A stretch of DNA of 64,000 bases from Methylobacterium sp. Leaf112 (GTDB lineage: Bacteria; Pseudomonadota; Alphaproteobacteria; Rhizobiales; Beijerinckiaceae). The stretch lies in the NCBI RefSeq assembly GCF_001423295.1, contig NZ_LMNG01000030.1, positions 186,358-250,357 on the forward strand, written 5' to 3'. The first letter of the stretch is position 1; every line of letters starts with the position of its first letter. The notes beneath the pieces were generated by a model. It was not told the DNA's origin. It searched no databases and saw only the letters and a list, made by a program, of their open reading frames with translations. This document shows positions 36,966 through 45,711 of the stretch, one piece after another. The position numbers were made by a program, and so were the translations under genes.

Positions 36966-39749
36966 CTAGCCTTCCGCGCGCCGGCTCGCCTGGGCTGCGG
37001 GGAACAGCATCTCCACCAGGGTACCCTCGTCCTTGCGGCTGGTGATCCGGAACTCGCCGCGGTTGGCCTCCACAAGGGCCTTGGTGATCGGCAGGCCGAG
37101 GCCGGTGTCTCCACCCGGGCGCGGGCCCTGCACCGGCGCGGCGCGGTAAGGCTCCAGCAGGGTCTCGATCTCGTCGGGCGTGAGGCCGATGCCGGTGTCG
37201 CGGACCCTGAGGGCGATCTCGCCCCGGTCGGCCATGGTGGTGGAGACGATGACCTGACCGCCGGCCTCGGTGAAGCGGATCGCATTGGCGATGACCGTCA
37301 AGGCCGCCTGACGCAGGGAGCGTTCGTCGGCGAGCAGCGGCGCGAGATCGGCTGAGAAACTCGTCCGCACCACGATGCGCTCGCGCGCGGCCTCCGGCTG
37401 CATCTGAGCGACGCAGCGCGAGACGAGATCGTTCAGGGGAATCTCGGTGAAGTCGAGATCGAGATGCCCGGCCTCGATCCGGGCGAGGTCGTTGAGATCG
37501 TCGACGAGGCCCAGAACCTCCGAACCGGATTTGCGAATGTCGTCGAGGTAGTTGCGGTAGCGCTCGTTGCCCAGGGGACCGAAGGGCTCGGTGAGCATCA
37601 GATCCGTGAACCCGAGGATGCCGCTCATCGGCGTCCGGATGGCGTGGCTGACGCGCGCCAGGAACGCCGATTTCCGAACGTTCGCCGTCTCGGCGAGACG
37701 CAGGGCCTCCGAGGAGGACGCCGCTGCATCCTGGGTGAGCCGCACATCCGGCCCGCGCTGCGGACGAAGGATCGCGCAGAGCCGGGTCTCGGCGTCGCGC
37801 GGGACCGTGCGGATGGTCAGCCGGAGGGGGAGGGGGCCGTCCGGCCCGCGGGCGATCACTTCGCAGGCCGCTTCGCCGGGGGACGATCCCGGTTCGGGAA
37901 CGCCATGCGTGGCGGCCAGCACGTCGACGGCGCTTTCCGGCGCGAACAGACTGAGGAAACTCTCACCCACGACCTCGCGGGGATCGGCACCGAACAGAGC
38001 GGCGGCCGCACGGTTGAGGGCGAGGATGCGGGCGCTGTCGTCCAGGGTGACGACCCCCTCGTCGAGGGCGTCGAGGATGCCGAGGGCGTCCTGGGCACGG
38101 CGCGCGGCGAAATCCTGCGCGATCCGCTCGGCCGTTCGTGCGCGGGCCGGTTCGTCCCTCACAGCGTCGCGCGCGAGAAGAATTTCGGCCGGGCGGCCGC
38201 ACCAATCGATGGCCGAGCGCTGGAGTTCGACGCCGCGATGGGCGCCGTCGCTCGCCGTCAGGATCGCGGGCGCGTCGCTCGTCGAGCGTTCGTGCGGGGG
38301 CAGGCCGCGGAACAGGTGAGCAATGCCGCCGGCCGCCACGAGGGCCGGGAAATCGGGAAACCCGGCGAGATCGAGGAGCGTGCGGTTGGCGAACAGGACG
38401 TCGTCGCCCCGATAGACGAGTACGCCCGTGGGCAGGCGTTCGAGCGTGGCGACCACGGCCGCGTCCGGCGCCGGCTCCTCCGGCTCAGGCGCCCGGGGCG
38501 GCGGTCCGGGAAATGCCATCACGGCGCCGCTCGGGTTGGCACGTCCCTCGTCGCGCGAAGCCTCCGCCAGATCGTCGCCGGCGAAACGCGCACCCAGGGC
38601 GCGGGCGATCTCGCGGAACGCCGCATGCTCGTGAGTCGTCAGGGACTCGTGGGTCACCGGTGTTTCTTGGGTCACCGGTGTTTCTTGGGTCACCGGTGTT
38701 TGTTGAGTCACCGGTGTTTCTTGGGTCGTCGGGGACAGATCGACGTCCGGGGCCGGCGTGCCGGATGCGGCTTCCGACGGCGAGGGTTCCGAGATCAGCT
38801 CGTCCGGAGCGGTCTCGAGTCGTTGCGTCGGGCCCTCCTGCGGTGCGGCCTCGGAGAGTGGCACCGGGGTGGGGGGGGTCGGGACGACCGCTTCGGGTTC
38901 GGATACAGCAGCGGCCTCGACGCCGCGCACGATGCCGAAGCCCGCGAACCCGCGTGGCGGCTGTCCGGTGCGCGCCAGCGGCGCCCCGGACAGGTCGAGT
39001 TCGACGACACGGCTCGGGCCGGCGAGGTGGATGCCCAAGGGGATCGCCCGGAACGTGCGGTTGGCGGCGAGGACGGCGAGCAGACCTTCGGCATCCCGGG
39101 CGATGCCGCCTTGCGACAACGCGGTCCAGGATCGCCCGACGATCGCGCCGCGCAGGAGTGCGCCGGCCGGACCGTCCACACGCACGAGGGTGCCGGCCGC
39201 ATCGGTCGTCCAGGTGAAGCGCGGAACGGCGCTCGGCTCTGCTGGCACATCCGCGGGCACATCGGCCTCCGCCGCAGGCAGGGAGGACGCGGCGGGCGGG
39301 ACTGTCTCGGGATGCCCGCTCGGAGCAGCCGGCACGACGGGGCGCAGTCGGGGAACGGCCTCCGTCAGGACGAGAACCCGCACGACGCGACCGTCGGACA
39401 CCGTCCCCAGAACCACGAGACAGGTCGTCGGCGGGGCAAGGCCGCGCCGGTCGAACCGGATGCGGGTCAGGGCGGGCCGGGGCGTCGCCTGGATCTGCGC
39501 AGCGAGACGAAGGCTCGGCAGGACGACCCCGTTCGCGTCCGCGATGGCATGCGCCAAAGGACGTGCCGCACTGGATGCGTGGACGAGGCGGGTACCGGCC
39601 TCGTCGAAGATCAGCAGGGCGCAGCCGGGCATGCTCAGGAGCGGCCCGAGGCGCGGTTCGCCCCCGAGACTCCGCACCAGGGCTCCCAGCGCCGCATCGT
39701 CCGGGACAAGCCCTTCGACCCCGTTATCGAACATTCGCACCCGTTTCAC
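36966..39749 (-). CDS. PAS-domain sensor histidine kinase, PleC/DivJ/PdhS-like
   Basis: 927 residues, no clear membrane helix. The N-terminal two thirds contain a divergent GAF/PAS-like region, a Pro/Thr/Glu-rich linker with tandem repeats (~338-370), a PAS (~435-500) and another PAS (~545-660). The kinase core has the phospho-His in SHAIRTPMSGI (~700). It is followed by LTEPFGPLGNERYRNYLDDI, a segment diagnostic of the PleC/DivJ/PdhS group that controls DivK and CtrA. N-box ANAIRFTE, DTGIG and GLGLPI are intact. A role in cell-cycle or polarity signalling is inferred. The alternative start MFDNG is 4 codons later. Confidence 0.88.
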   Translation of the reverse strand: MKRVRMFDNGVEGLVPDDAALGALVRSLGGEPRLGPLLSMPGCALLIFDEAGTRLVHASSAARPLAHAIADANGVVLPSLRLAAQIQATPRPALTRIRFDRRGLAPPTTCLVVLGTVSDGRVVRVLVLTEAVPRLRPVVPAAPSGHPETVPPAASSLPAAEADVPADVPAEPSAVPRFTWTTDAAGTLVRVDGPAGALLRGAIVGRSWTALSQGGIARDAEGLLAVLAANRTFRAIPLGIHLAGPSRVVELDLSGAPLARTGQPPRGFAGFGIVRGVEAAAVSEPEAVVPTPPTPVPLSEAAPQEGPTQRLETAPDELISEPSPSEAASGTPAPDVDLSPTTQETPVTQQTPVTQETPVTQETPVTHESLTTHEHAAFREIARALGARFAGDDLAEASRDEGRANPSGAVMAFPGPPPRAPEPEEPAPDAAVVATLERLPTGVLVYRGDDVLFANRTLLDLAGFPDFPALVAAGGIAHLFRGLPPHERSTSDAPAILTASDGAHRGVELQRSAIDWCGRPAEILLARDAVRDEPARARTAERIAQDFAARRAQDALGILDALDEGVVTLDDSARILALNRAAAALFGADPREVVGESFLSLFAPESAVDVLAATHGVPEPGSSPGEAACEVIARGPDGPLPLRLTIRTVPRDAETRLCAILRPQRGPDVRLTQDAAASSSEALRLAETANVRKSAFLARVSHAIRTPMSGILGFTDLMLTEPFGPLGNERYRNYLDDIRKSGSEVLGLVDDLNDLARIEAGHLDLDFTEIPLNDLVSRCVAQMQPEAARERIVVRTSFSADLAPLLADERSLRQAALTVIANAIRFTEAGGQVIVSTTMADRGEIALRVRDTGIGLTPDEIETLLEPYRAAPVQGPRPGGDTGLGLPITKALVEANRGEFRITSRKDEGTLVEMLFPAAQASRRAEG
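38650..38731 (-). repeat. 18-bp coding tandem repeat in the PAS kinase gene
   Basis: Successive copies of an 18-base unit (plus strand GGTGTTTCTTGGGTCACC) encode repeated TPVTQE. About four units occur, one differing by two bases (TQQ), with partial copies at the ends. Low sequence divergence between units points to recent expansion. Confidence 0.85.
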
Positions 39750-39888
39750 GTGGCGAGCTTATGGAGAGGATGTTTTCTCTTAACCCCAGCCGGGCCGGAG
39801 AGTGGACATCAATCGGTGGCGCCACACGTTTACCTGTTGTCAATCTTAATGCAGCCGCACAGGGTGGCATAGGGCGGACGGTGTGTTA

Positions 39889-39903
39889 TTGTGCAGCGCA
39901 CAA
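39889..39903. promoter_or_regulatory. Palindromic operator-like site upstream of the phasin gene
   Basis: TTGTGC-AGC-GCACAA, a perfect inverted repeat ending 37 bases before the phasin start, a typical repressor position. TGC/GCA palindromes at phasin promoters are the known targets of PhaR-type PHA-responsive repressors in alphaproteobacteria. The 13-base core recurs at 15487. Confidence 0.6.
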
Positions 39904-39940
39904 CGAACGAATCAACAAGCAGTCCAAGAAGGAGAGGATG

Positions 39941-40432
39941 ATGACCAGCACCCCGAATTATGAAGTCCCCGCCGAGATGCGCGACTTCGCCGAGAAGAGT
40001 GTCGATCAGGCCCGCAAGGCGTTCGATTCATTCATCAGCGCTGCCCGTCGCACAGCCGATACGGTCCAGGGTTCGGCCGAGACCGCCCGCACCAGCGCGC
40101 ACGACGTGTCCGCCCGCGGCTTCGAGTTCGCCGAGCAGAACGTGACGGCGGCCTTCGACCTCGCCCAGAAGCTGGTCCGCTCGCGCGACCTCCAGGAGGC
40201 CATGCAGCATCAGGCCGAGTTCGTCCGCAGCCAGTTCGCGGCGATCCAGGCGCAGGCCAAGGAGTTCGGCGGTCTCGCTCAGACGGCGATGCAGCAGAGC
40301 GCAGAGAAGGCCAAGGGCGTCATGCAGGAATCGGCCGAGCAGGCCCGCAAGGCCATGGAGCAGGGTGCCGAAGCCGCGCGTAAGGCCGGCGCCGACACCG
40401 AGCAGGCCCTGCGCAACGCCACCAACAACTGA
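39941..40432 (+). CDS. Phasin family protein
   Basis: 163 residues. ATGATG at 39938-39943 gives two starts; the second has the better spacing to AAGGAG. The protein is almost wholly amphipathic helix with the phasin pattern MRDFAEKSVDQARKAFDSFI, ARGFEFAEQNVTAAFDLAQKL, QAEFVRSQFAAIQAQAKE. The C-terminus is an Ala/Lys/Glu heptad region (MQESAEQARKAMEQGAEAA). Phasins coat polyhydroxyalkanoate granules and control their number and size. Monocistronic, with its own operator-like site and terminator. Confidence 0.92.
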   Translation: MTSTPNYEVPAEMRDFAEKSVDQARKAFDSFISAARRTADTVQGSAETARTSAHDVSARGFEFAEQNVTAAFDLAQKLVRSRDLQEAMQHQAEFVRSQFAAIQAQAKEFGGLAQTAMQQSAEKAKGVMQESAEQARKAMEQGAEAARKAGADTEQALRNATNN

Positions 40433-41126: not shown

Positions 41127-41780
41127 TCAGTTCAGAACGACGACCTTGGCGCCGACCCGGACACGCTCGTAGAGGTCGGTGACGTCCTCGTTGGTCATGC
41201 GGATGCAGCCCGAGGAGACCGCCTGCCCGATGGTGTCCGGCTCGTTGGAGCCGTGGATGCGGTACTCGGTGTTGCCGATGTACATGGCCCGTGCGCCGAG
41301 GGGGTTCTCGACTCCGCCGGCCATGTAACGCGGCAGATCGGGACGGCGGGCAATCATGGCGGCGGGCGGAGTCCACGACGGCCATTCCTTCTTAGCCGTC
41401 ACGGTCTTCGTGCCAGACCACGTGAAGCCCGGGCGACCGACGCCGACGCCGTAGCGGATCGCCTCGCCACCCGGCAGGACGAAGTACAGCCGGCGCTCGG
41501 AGGTAGAAACCACGACGGTCCCGGGCTTGTAGTCGCCCCGGAAGGCGACGAGTTCACGTGGGATCGGAGCCACCTGCGCCTGGGGAGCGGCCTGGACACC
41601 CTGGCCGACCGTGCCCTGGTAGCCATAGGGGCTCGCGCCGGTCTGCCCGTAAGCGGGGTCGGCGTAATAGTCTTCGCCGGCATCGCCGCCGAAGGGATCG
41701 TAGGGGTTCGCCAGCACCGGGCTGCCGGACAGGACACAGACGCTGAGAATGCCCGCGAGGGCGGAGGCCAAGGTCTTCAT
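41127..41780 (-). CDS. L,D-transpeptidase (YkuD domain)
   Basis: 217 residues from the ATG at 41780, just ahead of the signal peptide (LASALAGILSVCVLSGSPVLA). A Tyr/Gly/Asp-rich linker precedes the YkuD domain (~90-215). The catalytic motif HGSNEPDTIGQAVSSGCIRM has the invariant His, the SxGCxR core and the nucleophilic Cys. These periplasmic enzymes make 3-3 cross-links in peptidoglycan or attach proteins to it. The YxVGVGRPGF.WSGTKTV block is typical of alphaproteobacterial members. Confidence 0.93.
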   Translation of the reverse strand: MKTLASALAGILSVCVLSGSPVLANPYDPFGGDAGEDYYADPAYGQTGASPYGYQGTVGQGVQAAPQAQVAPIPRELVAFRGDYKPGTVVVSTSERRLYFVLPGGEAIRYGVGVGRPGFTWSGTKTVTAKKEWPSWTPPAAMIARRPDLPRYMAGGVENPLGARAMYIGNTEYRIHGSNEPDTIGQAVSSGCIRMTNEDVTDLYERVRVGAKVVVLN

Positions 41781-41885
41781 CGTTGATGCCTTACCTGAAG
41801 CGTAACCTTTGCTATACAAGCGTAAGCGTAGGGTGCCGGTTCCACGAGGCCCTGAAGATTTCGTTTCTCCGCCGATCGCGCGCGA

Positions 41886-42692
41886 TCAGAACACCTCGTC
41901 GGTGTGCACGTCGAAGCGGGCGAGGTGCGCGTAGCCGAAGTTGGTGGTGATCGCCACGTCCGTGGCATCCCGGCCCCGGGCCATGACGATGCGGCCGATG
42001 CGCGGCGTGTTGTGGCGGGCGTCGAAGGTGTACCAGCCTCCGTCGAGATAGACCTCGAACCAGGCCGAGAAATCCATCGGATCGGGCACGGGCGGAATCC
42101 CGATGTCGCCGAGATAGCCGGTGCAGTAGCGTGCCGGGATGTTCATGCAGCGACAGAAGGCGACCGCAAGGTGCGCGAAGTCCCGGCACACGCCCTGGCG
42201 CTGCATGAACCCATCCCAGGCCGTGCGGGTGGCGTCCGCACACATGTAGTCGAAGCGGATCCGCTCGTGGACGTAGTCGACGATGGCCTGAACCCGGCCC
42301 CAGCCCATGGGCGTGCCGCCGAACAGGGACCAGGCCGTCTCGGACAGCTTGTCCGTGTCGCAGTAGCGGCTGCCGAGGAGGTAGACGAGCACGTCCGACG
42401 GGAGGTTCTGGACCTCGATCTGCTGTGCCCAGGGGGCGTACACGTCGGGCTGCCCGGAATCCTGCACGATGAAATCGGCCGAGATGGTCAGCCGCCCCAT
42501 CGGCGTGACGATGCGCGTGAGGATGTTGTCGAAGACGTCACGGTATTCCTGCGACGGGATCGGCGGATCGAAGGTGATCATATGCGGCGTGAGCAGGTCG
42601 GGCATCCGGGAGGGATGGACGCTCAGCGCCAGGATCATGGGGGTCGGCTGAGCCGATTCGAAGGCGATGTCGAACCCAGTCCTGATCTTCAT
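41886..42692 (-). CDS. Transglutaminase-like protein 1
   Basis: 268 residues starting MKIRTGFDIAFES. It has an N-terminal beta-domain typical of bacterial transglutaminase-like proteins (~1-140), then the catalytic core. The Cys is in QGVCRDFAHLAV (~168), the His equivalent is replaced by Trp/Phe context in DFSAWFEVYL, and the Asp is in GGWYTFDAR. The place where His is expected in WFEVYL should be checked. Substrate unknown; peptidase-like activity is usual for this fold. The second transglutaminase-like gene lies 74 bases upstream on the same strand. Confidence 0.85.
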   Translation of the reverse strand: MKIRTGFDIAFESAQPTPMILALSVHPSRMPDLLTPHMITFDPPIPSQEYRDVFDNILTRIVTPMGRLTISADFIVQDSGQPDVYAPWAQQIEVQNLPSDVLVYLLGSRYCDTDKLSETAWSLFGGTPMGWGRVQAIVDYVHERIRFDYMCADATRTAWDGFMQRQGVCRDFAHLAVAFCRCMNIPARYCTGYLGDIGIPPVPDPMDFSAWFEVYLDGGWYTFDARHNTPRIGRIVMARGRDATDVAITTNFGYAHLARFDVHTDEVF

Positions 42693-42766
42693 GACGCTTA
42701 CCCAATCTCTCGAATTTGAAATGTCGTGTCCCGCGGGAAGATCCGGGCAATGCAGTAATTGGACCG

Positions 42767-43687
42767 TCAACGCGCGATCATAGGGTCCGGAACCCGTGCA
42801 TCGCCAGCACCCGGCTCGACTTCATCCACGGCGACGCTCACGGTCATGCCGAGGTCGTCCGCGGGAAACCCGAAGAAGGAGCCGTGCAGGGGCACGGCCT
42901 GGCGCGGATCGCGGGCAACGGCGACGCGGATCAGGTCGCGGTTGCCCACGATCCCGTTGGTCGGATCGAATTCGATCCAGCCGGCACCCGGCAGGTAGAC
43001 CTGCACCCAGGCATGGGTGGAGCCGCCGCCGACATGGCGTTCACGGTCGCCACGCGGGTTGTAGAGGTAGCCGGAGACGAACCGTGCGGCCATGCCGAGC
43101 GCCCGCACGGCCTCGATCATCAGCACGGCGAAGTCGCGACAGCTCCCGCGCTTCAAGCGCAGGGTGGTGACCGGGTCCTGGACGCCCTTCTCCGAGCGAG
43201 CGAGGTAGGCGAAGTTGCGCCGAACGCTGCGAGTCATCTCGGCGAGGAGATCCTGGGTCGCGATACGGCCGTTGGGCGGGACGAAGCCGCGGGCCCAGGC
43301 GTCGACCTCGTTGCGCGGATCGGGATGCTGCCGCTCCATCGAGCGGCTGAGGTCGGGGATGTCATCGGCGCCGTAGCCGAACGGGTAGAAGGCCGCGTGC
43401 GGGGCGAGCGGGAAGATCGGCGCGAGTTCGGGCGTGTGATCGAGGGTGATGGTGCATTCGAAGGTCAGGGTAGAGGCCCGCCCCTGGAAGGACGCCACGG
43501 CGACGCAATTGCCGAACACGTCGTGCAGCCAGCGCAACGACACCGGCTCGGGCGTGATCTTCAGGGCGGCGGAGAGGAGCCGCTGATCGTAACTGTCGCG
43601 CGGCCGGAACATGATCCGGTGCTCGCCGAACGCCACCGGCTGACGATAGCGATACGTGGTGATGTGGCGGACGGACAGAATCGGCAC
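42767..43687 (-). CDS. Transglutaminase-like protein 2
   Basis: 306 residues, no signal peptide. N-terminal domain begins with VRHITTYRYRQPVAFGEHR, typical of the bacterial transglutaminase N-terminal region. The catalytic triad is visible: Cys in RGSCRDFAVLMIEA, His in GSTHAWVQVYLPG, Asp in WIEFDPTNG. Proteins of this type are often found with proteasome-like or amide-ligase genes, which are absent here. It forms an operon with the smaller transglutaminase-like gene downstream. Confidence 0.9.
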   Translation of the reverse strand: MPILSVRHITTYRYRQPVAFGEHRIMFRPRDSYDQRLLSAALKITPEPVSLRWLHDVFGNCVAVASFQGRASTLTFECTITLDHTPELAPIFPLAPHAAFYPFGYGADDIPDLSRSMERQHPDPRNEVDAWARGFVPPNGRIATQDLLAEMTRSVRRNFAYLARSEKGVQDPVTTLRLKRGSCRDFAVLMIEAVRALGMAARFVSGYLYNPRGDRERHVGGGSTHAWVQVYLPGAGWIEFDPTNGIVGNRDLIRVAVARDPRQAVPLHGSFFGFPADDLGMTVSVAVDEVEPGAGDARVPDPMIAR

Positions 43688-43785
43688 GAATCGGCTCCAC
43701 CGCGCCGGGCGGCGCGGTCTCGTCCTCGATTAATGCAAGAGGTGCGCCCAAGCGAGATGGTGCGATGCAAAAGGCGGGGTTACTC

Positions 43786-44418
43786 TCAGGGCAGGATCGG
43801 CTGCGGCTCGGCGCAGGCCCGCTCCGCCTCGCCAAGAAGGTCCATCGGACGCCACGGTTTCGGGATGAACACAGCCTGAGGGGCGAGGCTGCCCGGTCGC
43901 TGCGTGCGCTGGCCCGAGGTGACGACGAGCCGGGTCATCGGCCACAGCAGGGCGATCGCGGACGCGAGCTGAACCCCATCCATGACGCCCGACAGATGCA
44001 CGTCGGCAAACACCAGGGACACGTCGCCGCCACGCGTGCGCATGATCTCGATGGCCGCCTCGGCGCTGTCGCACCCCACGACACCGAGTTCGGTCTCTTC
44101 GAGCAAGGCCTCCGCCAGGGCCCGGGTGGTCGCGTCATCCTCGACCACGAGGGCGAGTTTGCCCGATTTGGAGGTGGGCTTGCCGGCGATGGGGCTGGCG
44201 ACGGCGGGTGCGGGCTCGGGTTGGCGAACCTGGCGCACGAGGGCGGCCAAGTGCTCGGGCACCCCTTCGGCGATGAGATCGTCGTAGAACGAGGCCAGGG
44301 CCTGACCGATTCGGTCGAGGGACAGGCTCGGGCTCAGGGTGTCGGCGGGACCGAACACACCTCCCTCTGGCACGCGACGGTGCGGCGTGCCGTTCGTATC
44401 GGCCTCGAAATCGGCCAA
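43786..44418 (-). CDS. Response regulator with NepR-like N-terminal segment
   Basis: 210 residues. Residues ~33-66 (IGQALASFYDDLIAEGVPEHLAALVRQV, read in parts) resemble NepR, the anti-sigma factor of EcfG: the I-G-x-x-L-x-x-x-Y-D-x-x-x-x-E-x-V-P-x-x-x-x-x-L-L pattern. Residues ~87-205 form a receiver with EDD, phospho-Asp in VFADVHLSG, VVTSG and IPKPW. The two are joined by a Pro/Ala linker. This would place an anti-sigma-like motif under phosphorylation control. No DNA-binding domain. Assignment of the first part is by motif and needs a profile search. Confidence 0.75.
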   Translation of the reverse strand: MADFEADTNGTPHRRVPEGGVFGPADTLSPSLSLDRIGQALASFYDDLIAEGVPEHLAALVRQVRQPEPAPAVASPIAGKPTSKSGKLALVVEDDATTRALAEALLEETELGVVGCDSAEAAIEIMRTRGGDVSLVFADVHLSGVMDGVQLASAIALLWPMTRLVVTSGQRTQRPGSLAPQAVFIPKPWRPMDLLGEAERACAEPQPILP

Positions 44419-44538
44419 GCGGAGCCTCCAGCTTTACGGTCTCGTGGTGGGCCGAGTGTCGGACACACCTACATTAAAGCCGGGAGGGCACGCTGGGTTG
44501 CCGAAAATCCATCGTGCGTTCGCGATGCGGGCGCGGAA

Positions 44539-45711
44539 TCAGTCCGCGGAGGCGTCCGCATAGGCCATGACGCCGGCCACGGAGCGGACATCGCGATAGC
44601 GGGCGCCGCGCGCGCTCATCATCGCCTCGAACTTCTCGTGAACCTGGGCCACGGACAGGCTCGTCGCCTTGCGGCGTCCGCGCTGAGCCGCGAAGAAGAT
44701 CGTCTTGTTGGCGCGCGCGGGCCCCGGCAGCATCTGGGCGGCGGCGGCCTTGGGCTTGTCGGCAACGGTGGCGAGGAACTCCTCGGCGTCGTCCGGTCCG
44801 AGGAAGTGAGCGAGATAGACCTCCCCCAGCGACAGGTCGCGGCCGATGCGCAGGGCGATGCGGGCGGCGTCGCGCTTGAGCATCTCACCGGCCATGAGGG
44901 CGGAGAGGTAGGGGTCGCGGCGCAGTTCGAGGATGCGGGTGCGCTCGGCCGGATCGGCGACGGCGGGGCGGCCGTTGTCGCCCGTCGTCACGAGGGCGGC
45001 GTCCTGCGTCAGCCCGTGCTTGGGTCCGAAATCACGCACCACGCCGAGCCAGGTCCGCTCGATGAACTGGAACAGGCCGGTGGCCGAGGAGGTCTGGGCC
45101 TGCACCTCGGTCTTGAAGCTCGATTCCTTATCGGCCACCGCCATGAGCAGCACCGGGTCGGTCTGCACGGCCTGGGCCGCGCGGACGATCTTCTGCACGA
45201 GGTGGCGGCGGATCTTCATCGGGCCGAACTCGAGGACGTCGTTGGGATCGCCCACCGCGCTTTCGGTGATGAGGAAGTCGTACGAGACCCGGTCGACGGC
45301 GTTGGAGCCGAGTTCGGTATCGAGGTCGTGGATCGGCGCGAAGGCGGCCGACGCGGAGAGGACGCTCGCAGGAGTCCCGAGAATGGCGGGCGGGGCGATC
45401 TGAACGCGCGGGCGGGGCATCGCCACGGTGGTCATGGCCTGAGCCGACTGAACCACGCCACCGAGGCCGGACCCGGCCGGACCGACCCCGTTGAGGAGGG
45501 CCACGCTGAGCCCACCGACGAGAAGCGTCACCAGGAGGACGGAGCGCGTCAGCGCCGCCCGGCTGCCGTGTTCGCGGCCGACGCGGCCGCCGAGGGTCAG
45601 GGCGTCGGAAGTGGGGGACGAAACGATCGCGGCGGAACGACCGCGGAGGGGACCCTTGACGGGACCGTTGGCGAGGGCAGTCCGTGACGATCCGACCGTG
45701 CGACCCTGCAT
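44539..45711 (-). CDS. Lytic transglycosylase-like (SLT) protein
   Basis: 390 residues. A ~55-residue cytoplasmic tail is followed by a membrane segment (SVLLVTLLVGGLSVALL) and a periplasmic region. The SLT core is at ~185-290: AVADKESSFKTEVQAQTSS contains the catalytic Glu of the E-S motif, followed by ATGLFQFIERTW and LSLGEVYLAHFLGP. The enzyme cleaves peptidoglycan to 1,6-anhydromuropeptides, probably for growth or secretion-machine insertion. The C-terminal ~60 residues resemble no known domain. Confidence 0.87.
   Translation of the reverse strand: MQGRTVGSSRTALANGPVKGPLRGRSAAIVSSPTSDALTLGGRVGREHGSRAALTRSVLLVTLLVGGLSVALLNGVGPAGSGLGGVVQSAQAMTTVAMPRPRVQIAPPAILGTPASVLSASAAFAPIHDLDTELGSNAVDRVSYDFLITESAVGDPNDVLEFGPMKIRRHLVQKIVRAAQAVQTDPVLLMAVADKESSFKTEVQAQTSSATGLFQFIERTWLGVVRDFGPKHGLTQDAALVTTGDNGRPAVADPAERTRILELRRDPYLSALMAGEMLKRDAARIALRIGRDLSLGEVYLAHFLGPDDAEEFLATVADKPKAAAAQMLPGPARANKTIFFAAQRGRRKATSLSVAQVHEKFEAMMSARGARYRDVRSVAGVMAYADASAD

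Follow-up and report, generated by a model that had tools for sequence, protein, structure and literature searches.

A NepR-family segment joined to a response-regulator receiver across Methylobacterium, a candidate PhyR-binding regulator of the general stress response

The general stress response (GSR) of Methylobacterium is unusually branched, comprising as many as eleven EcfG genes along with several homologues of NepR (PMC4814048). In M. extorquens most EcfG paralogues lack a known anti-sigma factor, and the PhyR dependence of the paralogues beyond EcfG1 and EcfG5 is a gap (PMC4814048). NepR-like PhyR antagonists that stand alone have been described before, as have fusions of NepR with EcfG. 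For example, the M. extorquens NepR homologues META1p1275 and META2p0735 co-precipitate PhyR and bind no tested sigma EcfG, none of three standalone NepR homologues of this species bound any sigma EcfG in two-hybrid assays, and META2p0735, whose overexpression sensitises the cells, behaves as a negative regulator (PMC4814048). NepR2 of S. melonis also binds PhyR (PMC6599016), and a NepR-like N-terminal extension of sigma EcfG was reported for M. extorquens (PMC4814048). A fusion of NepR with a receiver was not found in the open-access literature, and it is unmentioned in the BLAST/PSI-BLAST hunt for NepR homologues in PMC4814048.

Here, we describe such a fusion in a stretch of 64,000 nucleotides from Methylobacterium sp. 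Leaf112 (the window), with the following features:

43786..44418, minus strand: NepR-REC fusion gene, 210 codons for a protein of 210 residues, TTG start at 44418 (coordinates include the stop codon)
44425..44429, minus strand: putative ribosome-binding site GGAGG, six bases 5' of the TTG start (sequence; comparable sites in relatives)
44221..44322, minus strand: NepR-like segment, residues 33-66 (PF18557, hhalign, AlphaFold2, conservation, pN/pS)
44158..44220, minus strand: variable linker, residues 67-87 (no invariant position, high pN/pS, low pLDDT)
43810..44157, minus strand: receiver domain, residues 88-203 (PF00072, predicted fold, Foldseek, conservation)
44002..44004, minus strand: codon of the putative phospho-acceptor Asp139 (invariance in 32 intact orthologues)

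The open reading frame is a real gene. Most of its relatives start with TTG or GTG behind a purine-rich ribosome-binding site (GGGGG/GGAGG), 13-37 codons ahead of the NepR motif. A 640-aa plus-strand frame across the locus was taken to be an open frame antisense to the gene, of the kind seen in high-GC DNA, and was rejected.

The fusion spans the genus Methylobacterium/Methylorubrum at one syntenic locus. Of 37 genomes of the genus that were searched, that of the window included, 32 carry an orthologue about 60-69% identical to the window copy; four of the other five carry a form with a degenerate receiver and one a diverged paralogue. Named records with the fusion come from Methylobacterium and Methylorubrum, the closest being M. 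gossipiicola. Among 63 loci, a lytic-transglycosylase-like gene lies upstream in 62, and transglutaminase-like and L,D-transpeptidase-like genes lie downstream in most (all named by sequence reading); no kinase was found among the conserved neighbours. In the window, the fusion gene stands amid cell-wall-type/transglutaminase-like genes (41127-45711, minus strand), in an order conserved genus-wide and without evident functional link. Further off, the C-terminal part of a plus-strand frame at 39563-40432 resembles phasin (MTSTPNYEVPAEMRDFAEKSVDQARKAFDSF). Additional receiver paralogues (L039, L044, L045, L078, L079) carry a diverged N-terminal segment, GxxxL...LP.RL..L, at the same place, and the Pfam NepR profile recognised this segment in neither of the two tested (L045 and L079).

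Outside Methylobacterium/Methylorubrum, fusions were seen in one genus, g65. An order-wide search gave two-domain matches only within the genus of the window copy, the others covering the receiver and at most a bit of the linker side. In the related genera g60 and g56, a NepR-like gene lies directly ahead of the receiver gene, and in Microvirga ossetica the genes of a hypothetical protein and a response regulator have frames overlapping by 20 bases, the small protein scoring only 14 bits against PF18557. The adjacency of the separate halves in these relatives indicates that the halves are functionally linked, and such split neighbouring genes suggest how the fusion arose. The number of fusion events is not settled by the receiver tree, in which one row (L079) was mis-extracted.

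The original prediction read a NepR-type pattern at residues ~33-66, and profile matches, alignments, the predicted structure, the orthologues and the selection pattern all back it. Against the Pfam NepR profile PF18557, the window copy matches at residues 35-67 with 20.9 bits for the whole protein and an E-value of 2.7e-4 after library correction, and the N-terminal part alone gives 6.4e-5. A hit to this profile had been foreseen: at least 11 orthologues provide it above the curated cut-off of 25.7 bits (26.7-29.8 bits), while the window copy, whose scores span 20.9-23.9 bits, stays just under. Scanned singly, orthologue L030 scores 26.9 bits. When 14 control genomes were searched with PF18557 at E<=0.05, Caulobacter gave the sole match. 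Moreover, profile-profile comparison (hhalign) of 18 N-terminal segments with 13 NepR or NepR-like sequences of Methylobacterium gave a probability of 95.8% and an E-value of 7.6e-9. The two-helix NepR core anticipated for residues 33-66 appears in the AlphaFold2 model as helices 34-50 and 55-65, with a pLDDT of roughly 60-78 in the segment and about 50 mid-linker. Judged from its sequence, the N-terminal part is a NepR-family two-helix segment.

The rest of the protein had been described as a complete receiver with a phosphorylatable Asp, which holds as well: Pfam Response_reg PF00072 matches residues 90-194 (E 1.7e-10; 41.5 bits, above the cut-off of 30.2), and the active-site residues E93, D94, D139, T167, F184 and K187 are invariant in 32 orthologues. 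The predicted fold matches receivers by Foldseek, in a model without helix alpha4. Profile searches found neither a sigma-like domain nor a match to PhyR in the protein. Single-domain receivers such as MrrA and SdrG carry a FATGUY motif after the conserved Lys. This motif is absent after K187, where PWRP stands instead, and KPWR is present in all intact orthologues checked.

Both domains are under strong purifying selection, from which the linker is exempt. Over 32 orthologues, mean conservation is 0.86 in the NepR segment, 0.81 in the receiver and 0.31 in the linker, and the invariant positions number 17 of 34, 43 of 118 (residues 88-205) and 0 of 21, respectively. The linker also stands apart in pN/pS, which in three intact groups reaches 0.53-0.95 there, as against 0.05-0.11 in the NepR segment and 0.04-0.15 in the receiver.

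In the clade of M. indicum, ajmalii, frigidaeris and tarhaniae, the orthologue at the same syntenic locus has a degenerate receiver, in which the phospho-acceptor D139 is replaced by Gly and T167 by Ala, K187 is deleted and the acidic pair is partly lost. The degenerate domain is still receiver-folded in the predicted model, and its pN/pS of 0.35 indicates some constraint. In the four sequences of this clade that were examined, 11 of 12 key NepR positions are unchanged and the twelfth, Ile37, is Leu. Since the NepR part outlives phosphorylation here, it is probably the output of the fusion protein. With these naturally phospho-dead orthologues, the proposed switch can be tested directly. Upstream of the genes of this clade (L040-L043), GGAAAC-N15/16-GGTTTA or GGCTTA is conserved about 30-65 bases from the start, a sequence that resembles an EcfG promoter without matching it.

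Which partner this output would have is indicated by the residues that it keeps. In S. melonis NepR, L32, R33, Y36 and M48 contact PhyR, and L32A and Y36A abolish function while R33A is still active (PMC6599016). In the alignment these residues correspond to L41, A42, Y45 and L57 of the fusion. L41 and Y45, the counterparts of the essential L32 and Y36, are invariant in 32 intact orthologues, and the dispensable R33 is a natural Ala42. Some conserved NepR residues are altered (LR to LA, QP to EG and DRF to EHL), and partner specificity may therefore have shifted.

The original prediction offered two roles, a direct phospho-switch on EcfG or a decoy for PhyR. Because the M. extorquens homologues bind PhyR and no EcfG, and the essential PhyR-contact residues are kept, the decoy is the favoured candidate, and the direct switch found no support over it. 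We nevertheless weighed the possibility that an EcfG-type sigma is the direct target of the NepR segment, which would make the fusion a phospho-controlled anti-sigma factor for an EcfG paralogue that NepR leaves unbound. The homology of the segment to NepR would fit, as would two EcfG-like sigma factors of the same genome with NepR-like N-terminal extensions (L003, G000:C34:75416-75514; L004, G000:C22:21685-21774) and the many EcfG paralogues of M. extorquens that lack a known anti-sigma factor (PMC4814048); the failure of three standalone M. extorquens homologues to bind any EcfG and the several canonical NepR residues changed in the fusion make it unlikely.

From the above, the fusion may be a PhyR-binding, phospho-gated NepR paralogue and negative regulator of the GSR rather than a plain anti-EcfG switch, a reading to which we give an even chance of being right. 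Its NepR helices would bind the sigma-like domain of PhyR, and possibly an EcfG too, and a histidine kinase would phosphorylate the receiver, which in turn would set the availability of these helices. Available helices would compete with NepR for phospho-PhyR, and the NepR so freed would re-bind sigma EcfG and lower the GSR. In this way the fusion would probably let a second kinase signal lower the response. Homology, invariance, synteny and receiver decay are seen in the sequences, while binding, gating, kinase input and the sign of control are what we infer. In the subclade with a degenerate receiver, the same output may be constitutive or otherwise controlled.

We advance more tentatively, at somewhat less than an even chance, the wider proposal of a response regulator with NepR as its output. 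The protein would then be a phospho-gated ligand of the phospho-gated sigma mimic PhyR, and a single partner switch would have a receiver on either side, each set by a different kinase; one clade would have kept the NepR output after decay of the gate. Through a conserved NepR borne on a receiver, other kinases would gain an entry point into the branched GSR of Methylobacterium that has been missing so far.

The surroundings of the gene bear on PhyR antagonism as well. In its favour, the same genome encodes PhyR (NF006623, 364.8 bits) beside a standalone NepR; the fusion gene is unlinked to them, about 78 kb away. Upstream of the window copy there is no EcfG-type promoter, and the only match in a scan of 29 loci coincides in part with the ribosome-binding site, so that nothing points to a transcriptional feedback of the META2p0735 kind. 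Counting against PhyR antagonism are the sub-threshold PF18557 score of the window copy, the changed NepR residues, the missing EcfG promoter, the unlinked phyR and nepR, the lack of a neighbouring kinase and the 14 bits in Microvirga ossetica.

Another NepR-like sequence was noticed during these searches. A hybrid histidine kinase of PAS-PAS type that carries two receivers (L150-L157, e.g. G010:C1:5571872-5571973) has a C-terminal NepR-like tail with about 27-32 bits against PF18557, and matches to a hybrid-kinase receiver plus such a tail occur in about 42 out of 59 genomes of the genus, with no full-length match in the genome of the window. The homology of this tail to NepR is uncertain, and we left it out of the support because its first helix seems to coincide in part with alpha5, a helix of the last receiver.

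Two further explanations retain the NepR origin of the segment. The segment might be an address tag that docks on PhyR, so that the linked receiver and a kinase or phosphotransferase act on PhyR, as an adaptor or a phosphate sink with activating or damping effect. It is reported that NepR strongly enhances PhyR phosphorylation and that the pair is cooperative (PMC5964349), and the receiver and NepR segment remain coupled, either within one protein or through neighbouring genes. The single-domain receivers MrrA and SdrG feed PhyR via phosphotransferases; against such a role, the NepR segment persists in one clade whose receiver lacks a phospho-acceptor, and PWRP rather than the FATGUY motif follows Lys187, so we regard the docking role as distinctly unlikely. 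We give little weight to the other explanation, that the helix pair is a NepR-derived piece with a changed role that serves the receiver only, such as dimerisation or the binding of a protein outside the GSR: the profile score under threshold, the substitutions at NepR-conserved positions, the missing EcfG promoter and the unlinked GSR genes speak for it, but the residues on which NepR function depends do not vary, even beside a dead receiver, and several orthologues exceed the NepR cut-off. That an amphipathic N-terminal helix pair on an ordinary orphan response regulator resembles NepR by chance is extremely improbable: the motif is short, and a PDB search with the single sequence, too weak to decide, gave NepR 3t0y at E 0.38 only, among unrelated proteins, yet the library-corrected E-value of the window copy, the orthologues above the PF18557 cut-off, the profile-profile E-value, the clean control genomes and a separate NepR-like gene (32.9 bits) adjoining a related receiver in L091 all contradict it.

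Returning to the fusion as a putative PhyR antagonist, each known system shares a part of its design. MrrA and SdrG, of the FATGUY type, are orphan alphaproteobacterial receivers, but they have no NepR segment and the fusion has no FATGUY motif. NepR itself, which acts as anti-sigma factor in the alphaproteobacterial GSR (PF18557; PDB 3t0y, 2lfw, 4qic, 5uxx), shares with the fusion the two-helix core IG..L...YD....E.VP..L..L and the essential Leu and Tyr; it differs in being small, standalone and usually encoded with phyR/ecfG, and in its LR and QP/EP positions, whereas the fusion is receiver-linked and at an unlinked locus. The nepR gene of M. extorquens has an EcfG-type promoter upstream, unlike the window copy of the fusion. 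The likely PhyR antagonists META2p0735 and META1p1275 of M. extorquens and NepR2 of S. melonis are the best functional model for the fusion, although they have no receiver, and META2p0735 and NepR2 are EcfG-controlled whereas no EcfG promoter was found for the fusion. In the NepR-like extension of sigma EcfG, as in the fusion, the segment is N-terminal on a signalling module, its partner there being a sigma factor and not a receiver. PhyR has the same layout as the fusion, an N-terminal partner-switch module and a C-terminal receiver; PhyR bears the sigma mimic, and the fusion bears the ligand of that mimic.
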